Assembly: GCA_016783505.1 (NCBI GenBank) | Contig: JADHWK010000075.1 | Coordinates: 1 to 9,009, forward strand | DNA length: 9,009 nucleotides | Reading direction: 5' to 3' | Origin: Candidatus Zhuqueibacterota bacterium | Lineage (GTDB): Bacteria; BS750m-G25 | In this document: positions 2,452 through 5,789 of the stretch, one piece after another | How the letters are laid out: each line of letters begins with the position of its first letter | How positions within the stretch are numbered: the first letter of the stretch is position 1 | Position numbers and translations under genes: made by a program | Notes under the pieces: model-generated | Seen by the model: only the letters and a program-made list of their open reading frames with translations | Told to the model about the DNA's origin: nothing | Databases searched by the model: none

Positions 2452-3084
2452 TTAAGTTGTCTCCTCTTTAGTGATAAGAATGGGGAAGATAATATCAGAT
2501 GTGCAGCAGGGGATTATTACTGCCAGGGTCATATAGATAAAAACGGCGCCGATCTGGTGGATCCACTCCACCATTCCAAAAGAGACCAGATAGAGAATAG
2601 AAGCCATAGAACTCACCAGAACATGGGCCGAATGGGAGAAGATGGTGGTCTGAATACTGGTAGGCATGGTGAGACCGATCAAGACCCCAGCGGCCACGAA
2701 GGGCAAGATGATCTGCGGATGTTCGATGATACAGATATGCAAGTGCATCTTGACCCCGAGAAGGAATCCGGAAATATAAGGTATTATAATGTCACTGAGT
2801 CCGCATATTAGTACTGCCCCAACAATACCAACGATCACTGATTTTATTAATTTTCTCTCATGTCGCCAGAACATGGCGGTGGTAGCAATGGAAGAGAAGA
2901 GTATATGAATAGGATGGAAGACATGGAATAGTCCCTGCGAGGGGATGGAAAAATCCTTCGTGGTTACTAAATTGGCGATGAACGTAAGTATCCCCAGCAT
3001 TATAAGCCCGGAAGTGACACTGAAACCGGTGTAAGGGAGATGGGCCTTTAACTCTGTCGCTAAGTGATGAATTTTACCCTTCAT
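2452..3084 (-). CDS. Six-helix membrane protein with internal duplication, function unknown
   Basis: 210 residues, I do not recognise the family. Hydrophobic segments at about 20-40, 54-73, 81-110, 125-142, 151-171 and 178-204 suggest six membrane helices with both ends in the cytoplasm. The two halves share a motif pair. H57-x2-H60 followed by hydrophobic-SS-x-A matches H151-x2-H154 with the same tail. C94-x2-S97-D98-I-I-x-P102 matches C193-x2-S196-D197-I-I-x-P201. Three helices per half implies oppositely oriented repeats, as in many transporters. Paired His, Cys and Asp in membrane segments, plus His-rich loop residues (114, 116, 122), fit metal binding, but this is inference. The ATG overlaps the methyltransferase stop (ATGA) and has GAGG upstream, so the two are translationally coupled. 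Confidence 0.85.
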   Translation of the reverse strand: MKGKIHHLATELKAHLPYTGFSVTSGLIMLGILTFIANLVTTKDFSIPSQGLFHVFHPIHILFSSIATTAMFWRHERKLIKSVIVGIVGAVLICGLSDIIIPYISGFLLGVKMHLHICIIEHPQIILPFVAAGVLIGLTMPTSIQTTIFSHSAHVLVSSMASILYLVSFGMVEWIHQIGAVFIYMTLAVIIPCCTSDIIFPILITKEETT

Positions 3085-3725
3085 TTTATCCTCACCAGAA
3101 TTCCTAGAAAAGCCCCAAAGGGGTTTTTAGTCATAATAGGGGGTAGGGTGCCCTGCCAGTTCACCTTTAAGCTACGATCAATCTTTTTGATCATTCTTTT
3201 TAGTTCAAATATACTGTAAAACCTTGCCTGGTTATAGATCGAATCTGTGAATTTCCCTTTAAGCCTTCGCTTCAGGGCGAGTAGTGAATAGCGATTTAAA
3301 ACACCCAATAGGACCTGCTCCCGGGCGACCCGGATCATCTCTGATAGGGCCTTCATGGGTTTAGCCACAAATTCCAGGGTGGTAATCATGGCTGCCATCT
3401 GGAAAGTTTTATCATTAAAGGGAAGGTTCTCGGCAAAACCCTGACAGAGCCTGGTTTCTGATTTAAGCTTTTCCCGGGCGATTTTGAGCATGTGGGGAGA
3501 ATTGTCTATGCCGTAGACGGCTAAATCTAGTTCCTTAAACCAGACCAGATGGTGTCCTGTGCCACAGCCGATGTCCAGTAAAGATTGACCGGGACTTATC
3601 GTCATTAATCTTAGCATTAGCTCCTTTTCCTGTTTGTCGGCATACCGACCCGCCGGGGTCTTAAACCACCGATCATAATTTTCTGCTACCTTTTGATTGA
3701 ACACTCTCATCTGCTTGGTGCTCAC
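3081..3725 (-). CDS. Class I SAM-dependent methyltransferase (Methyltransf_11 type)
   Basis: 214 residues. Motif I LLDIGCGTG (49-57) binds the SAM methionine part, and the acidic residue D74 in GIDNSPHML should bind the ribose. The first 35 residues, with YDRWFKTPAGRYADKQEK, form a cap often seen in small-molecule methyltransferases of anaerobes. There are no paired cysteines of the arsenite methyltransferase kind. The start is GTG at 3725 with no clear Shine-Dalgarno site; an ATG at 3710 is an alternative that loses five residues. The gene overlaps the membrane protein by four bases, so the two products probably work together, perhaps on a membrane or transported substrate. The substrate cannot be told from sequence. 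Confidence 0.87.
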   Translation of the reverse strand: MSTKQMRVFNQKVAENYDRWFKTPAGRYADKQEKELMLRLMTISPGQSLLDIGCGTGHHLVWFKELDLAVYGIDNSPHMLKIAREKLKSETRLCQGFAENLPFNDKTFQMAAMITTLEFVAKPMKALSEMIRVAREQVLLGVLNRYSLLALKRRLKGKFTDSIYNQARFYSIFELKRMIKKIDRSLKVNWQGTLPPIMTKNPFGAFLGILVRIK

Positions 3726-5141: not shown

Positions 5142-5789
5142 CTATTTTTTAAATGGCTCATCTAATACCTTTAAAAAGATTTCAACAGCTGGATGATTAC
5201 TATATAGTTTAACCCGAAATGGTATATCTTTGTCTATTTTGGAATTTTTAACTAACACAAGGGACTTCCATAAGTAAGTCAAAATGAGTGGCTTTTCTTC
5301 TGTTAATACTCTTGAAGTTTCTCTAAGATAATCTCTATGTGCTTGACTATCTTTTTCTACACAATAATAAGCATGTAAAAAAGGTACCATAGTATTGAGT
5401 GAAAAAATTCCATCTACTGATTCATCAGGAATATCTGAGTAATCAGAACCACTTCTTAATTCCAACCCCACATTATCATTATCAGAAAATCTGCTACGTG
5501 CAAGTTCTACTAAACTTTTTCGAACATCATGCGCAACTAACCTGTACTTGTTAATCCCCCTTTCCGATAAATCACTGCATATTTGAGCAGTTGTAACTCC
5601 ACTACCACAACCACTCTCGTATATCAATGGTGCACTACTATCTTTAGTTATTAGCCCAAATATATCATCAATACTTTGAGAAGTTAAAGCCACCTCTAAA
5701 GCATTACTATGCTCATATACACTATCCCAGTTGCCATTTTCTTTTAGAAACCTAAGTAGATCTTCTATTTTTTTAAAATTCATTGCCAT
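5142..5789 (-). CDS. Class I SAM-dependent methyltransferase, substrate unknown
   Basis: 215 residues. Motif I is Y57-E-S-G-C-G-S-G64, and D88 in AHDVRKSL should bind the SAM ribose. ESVDGIFSLNTMVPFL, near residues 122-137, takes the place of motif IV and its surroundings. An N-terminal helical region of about 50 residues precedes the core. I do not recognise the subfamily, and it is not closely like the other methyltransferase in this window. Two start codons are possible: ATG at 5789 and, two codons on, ATG at 5783. Neither has a good Shine-Dalgarno site. The gene is strikingly AT-rich (about 35% G+C in one 60-base sample), which hints at a different origin from the GC-richer neighbours. 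Its place just upstream of trxA-trxB suggests joint expression. Confidence 0.82.
   Translation of the reverse strand: MAMNFKKIEDLLRFLKENGNWDSVYEHSNALEVALTSQSIDDIFGLITKDSSAPLIYESGCGSGVTTAQICSDLSERGINKYRLVAHDVRKSLVELARSRFSDNDNVGLELRSGSDYSDIPDESVDGIFSLNTMVPFLHAYYCVEKDSQAHRDYLRETSRVLTEEKPLILTYLWKSLVLVKNSKIDKDIPFRVKLYSNHPAVEIFLKVLDEPFKK

Follow-up and report, generated by a model that had tools for sequence, protein, structure and literature searches.

We propose that a 210-residue membrane protein encoded by a Candidatus Zhuqueibacterota bacterium is probably an undescribed small transition-metal permease, most likely an importer of Ni2+ and/or Fe2+. The gene lies in a window of 9,009 nucleotides, which is the whole stretch of DNA analyzed here (positions 1 to 9,009 of contig JADHWK010000075.1). 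The family has two features expected of a transition-metal permease: a NikR, Fur or DtxR homologue directly adjoins the gene in 21 of 73 loci, though not in the window's own, and ligand-type residues are conserved in the predicted helices. The regulation and mechanism discussed below, like transport itself, its direction and the metal carried, are inferred from such features.

An internally duplicated membrane protein

The window features concerned, all on the minus strand, are the following.

2452 to 3084, minus strand: membrane protein of six helices with an internal duplication, a proposed transition-metal permease of 210 aa (based on the open reading frame, relatives, AlphaFold2 and the half-half match)
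2755 to 3084, minus strand: first repeat, residues 1-110, with helices 2-40, 46-76 and 79-108 and the motifs H57xxH60 and C94xxS97D98xxxP102
2455 to 2754, minus strand: second repeat, residues 111-210, with helices 123-139, 144-169 and 175-204, residue H116 and the motifs H151xxH154 and C193C194xS196D197xxxP201
3081 to 3725, minus strand: class I SAM-dependent methyltransferase, 214 aa, UbiE-like, under every equivalog cut-off
3081 to 3084, minus strand: ATGA overlap of the methyltransferase stop and the membrane protein start

The initial annotation had placed the overlap of the two genes correctly, as well as the four motifs that recur between the halves of the membrane protein: HPIHILFSSIA (57-67), HSAHVLVSSMA (151-161), CGLSDIIIP (94-102) and CCTSDIIFP (193-201). 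It had also proposed an internal duplication, with three helices per half in inverted topology, and each part of this proposal held up. We performed the profile-profile comparison that it had suggested, aligning residues 1-110 with residues 111-210 in hhalign using 77 relatives, and found the halves significantly similar (probability 95.5%, P 1.6e-8, score 48.3). The top score among 200 column-shuffled or reversed control alignments was 19.2, and a second, 39-sequence alignment gave a score of 43.8 and a probability of 94%. The repeat is beyond chance. The residues paired by the half-half alignment were H57/H151, H60/H154, S64/S158, C94/C193, S97/S196, D98/D197 and P102/P201.

AlphaFold2, run with 14 sequences, predicted six long helices at the positions listed above, three in each half (pLDDT 89, pTM 0.86). 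Mean counts of lysine plus arginine were 3.35 at the N-terminus, 3.48 in loop 2-3, 1.09 in loop 4-5 and 2.26 at the C-terminus, compared with 1.01, 0.90 and 0.14 in loops 1-2, 3-4 and 5-6. By the positive-inside rule, these charges fit a protein with both termini inside and its halves oppositely oriented. The protein thus combines the features of an inverted-repeat transporter: homologous halves, a predicted odd number of helices in each (three) and opposite orientation as read from loop charges.

Conserved residues and outside loops

Eleven residues were identical in all 77 sequences (H60, S97, D98, H116, H151, H154, P192, C193, C194, D197 and P201), and H57 was identical in 76. In the wider 39-sequence set, which includes Planctomycetota, the invariant residues were H57, H60, S97, D98, H116, H151, H154, S158, C193, C194 and D197. 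Seven of those identical in 77/77 (H60, D98, H151, H154, C193, C194 and D197) are located in predicted transmembrane helices. The family has two forms, one with C94, C118 and H54, to which the window protein belongs, and one with A94, G118 and mostly Y54.

His-rich loops are a familiar trait of metal transporters. In Planctomycetota members of the family (L172 and L174-L178), loop 3-4 is extended by long His/Asp/Glu-rich inserts, immediately N-terminal of the invariant H116 and predicted to face outward. One such member, with its insert between helices 3 and 4, lies at positions 5803-7005 of L177; the others are in L178, L175, L176, L172 and L174. The suggestion that the paired His, Cys and Asp residues are metal ligands, made in the initial annotation, gains support from the invariant residues, the His-rich outside loops and the NikR, Fur, DtxR and FeoB neighbors described below.

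Distribution of the family

The window protein matched no Pfam or NCBIfam family at E ≤ 1, and its relatives had no match in either collection. With a 39-sequence profile, no PDB chain was found at E ≤ 10, leaving no credible sequence relative of known structure, and no viral relatives were confirmed. Relatives were found in metagenome-assembled genomes (MAGs) labeled Omnitrophota, NPL-UPA2, Clostridia, Planctomycetota, Aenigmatarchaeota, Thermoplasmatota and Methanocellales. Among sampled genomes, the gene was present in 78 of 237 Omnitrophota, 33 of 343 Planctomycetota, 15 of 243 from the phylum of a Methanomassiliicoccales MAG and 24 of 246 from the phylum of the Methanocellales MAG, which we call Halobacteriota here. 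The family is real, widespread and apparently undescribed, in that it is absent from Pfam, NCBIfam, PDB and the open literature searched (TCDB was outside this scope).

Metal repressors and FeoB beside the gene

To determine which genes adjoin the family, we examined 73 loci. NikR, Fur and DtxR homologues occupied 22 of the 144 slots one gene away from the membrane protein gene but only 5 of about 396 at a distance of three to six genes. The adjacent repressors were spread over Omnitrophota, Planctomycetota, Thermoplasmatota and Halobacteriota, and representatives were verified with both Pfam and NCBIfam, one NikR exceeding its equivalog cut-off. In L007, L172, L177 and L179, a Fur gene encoded on the same strand overlaps or abuts the membrane protein gene. 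FeoB was found within two genes in six loci, including split feoB genes immediately 5′ of the membrane protein gene in L009, L101, L102 and L103. The window's genome (60% complete) gave no NikR or CbiM match; it encodes a protein of the C94/C118 type, a weak NiFe-hydrogenase-like large-subunit match and hypA nearby.

Fur and DtxR classically repress uptake, and FeoAB is an importer. Import is favored for this reason, NikR too being a classical repressor of uptake genes (PMC7055735, PMC2667541). Nickel is favored where the neighbor is NikR, and iron where it is Fur or FeoB. Because these neighbors imply different metals (nickel for NikR, iron for Fur and FeoB, iron or manganese for DtxR/MntR), a single specificity across the whole family is unlikely, and metal specificity may differ by clade.

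It is improbable that the protein works in the opposite direction, as a metal exporter or detoxification pump. Metal regulators may adjoin efflux genes too, exporters also have His-rich loops, and topology and residues leave direction unfixed. Nevertheless, the repressors found here are of the kinds that classically control uptake, the FeoAB neighbors are importers, and no RcnR-, CsoR- or ArsR-type neighbor was recognized (these were not the object of a targeted search).

Slightly less probable again is a role as a membrane-bound metal sensor or as an accessory subunit (of FeoB, for instance), with no transport by the protein itself. The protein is small, and its gene lies directly 3′ of split feoB in the four loci named above. 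However, most loci have no FeoB, the gene often stands alone with just a repressor, and the design, in which the helices of an inverted repeat carry ligand-type residues, is like that of a transporter. The gene neighborhood shared with FeoB in several relatives probably reflects the same physiological process; the membrane protein lacks a G domain and does not match FeoB models.

Other genes were common to the window neighborhood and the loci of relatives in other phyla, namely Mrp/MinD-type ATPases, an ARMT1-like gene and a radical SAM gene, and these suit a metallocofactor context. In three Omnitrophota loci (L008, positions 5711-13136, as well as L091 and L097), the gene adjoins putative tetrapyrrole biosynthesis genes, identified by reading translations by eye as hydroxymethylbilane synthase-like and aminotransferase-like, with a cyclic-nucleotide-binding-like gene upstream. 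Within the window, positions 1859-2419 encode a NifU/IscU-like scaffold whose Pfam match begins at residue 57, so that the true start probably lies downstream of the listed GTG, and positions 1640-1720 hold an imperfect intergenic inverted repeat (GGAATAGTGGAATATTGG ... CCAATATTCCATTATTCC) that is possibly a terminator or a small mobile repeat.

The methyltransferase gene

The methyltransferase had been put forward as a functional partner, forming a conserved two-gene system in which it would modify the substance transported or sensed by the membrane protein. The ATGA overlap and a GGTGAGG ribosome-binding site immediately 5′ of the membrane protein's ATG suggest translational coupling in the window's genome, but the pairing was seen at the window's locus only: a methyltransferase gene adjoins the membrane protein gene in 0 of 72 other loci (the window's own phylum is not among them), and the four generic, distant methyltransferases in the 73 loci (E 6e-8 to 1e-4) all lie two or more genes away. 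Since homologues of the pair do not occur together, a two-gene system is largely refuted at the family level and very unlikely overall. We rejected the methyltransferase as a partner and treat it as a bystander whose pairing is incidental. A second methyltransferase with a weak match is encoded at positions 5142-5789, adjoining thioredoxin and thioredoxin reductase genes.

A NikR paralogue and a shared intergenic dyad

The membrane protein gene and the NikR gene are divergent in 13 of the 14 NikR loci, six of which share synteny and are not independent. All 14 NikR-like neighbors retain four nickel ligands, spaced as H76, H87, H89 and C95, the nickel ligands of Escherichia coli NikR (PMC7055735). 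In Halobacteriota, the neighboring NikR is an additional copy, short and divergent, that scores about 57-66 bits against NikR_C, whereas most canonical copies elsewhere in these genomes reach 100-119 bits. By our reading of the tables, this short paralogue is present in about half (12-13 of 24) of the gene-positive Halobacteriota genomes and in 0 of 20 gene-negative ones. It is about 127 aa long; one copy lies at positions 2187-2570 of L108, with others in L109, L110, L111, L112, L115, L117, L118, L120 and L122.

The archaeal membrane protein gene is mostly divergent from the NikR paralogue across a shared dyad, TTATTAA-N15-TTAATAA. The dyad is enriched over dinucleotide shuffles with a z of 13.6, a value to be read knowing that the regions used for the test were also those from which the dyad was derived, with half-site and spacing picked after inspection. 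Across 12 whole genomes, five of its seven sites fall in this intergenic region. Its architecture resembles that of described NikR operators, GTGTTAC-N13/14-GTAACAC (PMC545781).

About a third of the 24 gene-positive Halobacteriota genomes, some of them incomplete, showed no CbiM-type importer, compared with 0 of 20 gene-negative genomes. This complementarity is only suggestive because most gene-positive genomes have CbiM as well.

Comparison with known transporters and structures

Known nickel and cobalt importers (NikABCDE, Nik/CbiMNQO, NiCoT, UreH, HupE/UreJ and CbtX) likewise often adjoin nikR or are predicted to be NikR-controlled (PMC2667541, PMC545781), but the membrane protein matched none of their Pfam or NCBIfam models. 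In archaea, a 2009 survey recorded no more than three nickel/cobalt families plus CbtX (PMC2667541). We rejected CbtX as the identity of the membrane protein, as CbtX is COG3366, which is described as a different protein. Neither the window protein nor its relatives matched the Pfam or NCBIfam models of NiCoT (NicO), CbiM/NikM, HupE/UreJ or ZIP. ZIP zinc transporters such as BbZIP are metal carriers with His and Asp ligands, and some of them have His-rich loops. The family resembles ZIP in these ligand-type residues and in the His-rich loops of some members, but has no sequence match to it, and structural Z scores of 4.5-5.2 are in the background range.

The only standout structural matches were TRIC/UPF0126 chains (PDB 5h36, 5wtr and 5wuc), with VIA Z scores of 8.9-10.3 over 133-138 residues at an rmsd of about 3; the next, unrelated match had a Z of 6.3 and the TRIC Foldseek E value was 0.19, and such Z scores may arise by chance among helical bundles. 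The structures compared were Foldseek's own candidates, so that the lack of a better match is no evidence of a new fold. TRIC proteins consist of two inverted three-helix repeats (PMC5477506), as is predicted for the membrane protein. The TRIC alignment begins one helix late (model residues 49-205 on TRIC residues 4-145), the seventh TRIC helix has no counterpart, and the His/Cys/Asp motifs fall where TRIC has GGG motifs. Neither the window protein nor its relatives matched the TRIC/UPF0126 Pfam models, and no TRIC chain was found by profile. Kinship with TRIC is only suggestive, a lead and not a result.

It is possible, if doubtful, that the family represents a new superfamily whose inverted-repeat fold is TRIC-like but circularly shifted and whose pore helices bear His/Cys/Asp ligands, and that in methane-cycling and related archaea it forms a private uptake module for nickel or a second metal with its own NikR paralogue.

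Proposed mechanism and implications

For the transition-metal permease that we favor, the two oppositely oriented three-helix repeats would form one protomer, in which HxxH (helices 2 and 5) and (C/A)xxSDxxxP (helices 3 and 6) could build a two-fold-related metal path across the membrane. Metal may be gathered at the outer face by H116 and nearby acidic or His-rich outside loops. On the model of other inverted-repeat carriers, transport would proceed by switching between two pseudo-symmetric ligand sets; alternatively, the protein may be a metal-selective channel. The adjacent NikR, Fur or DtxR repressor probably controls expression in many relatives.

Nickel and iron enzymes are essential to methanogens, anaerobic methane oxidizers and many uncultured bacteria. 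If our proposal is true, a metal permease that is small, widespread and unannotated, and that has its own repressor, would partly close the gap left where no CbiM-type importer was seen, and hypothetical proteins in several phyla would gain a testable role. Structural studies would also gain a very small metal carrier of the inverted-repeat kind.
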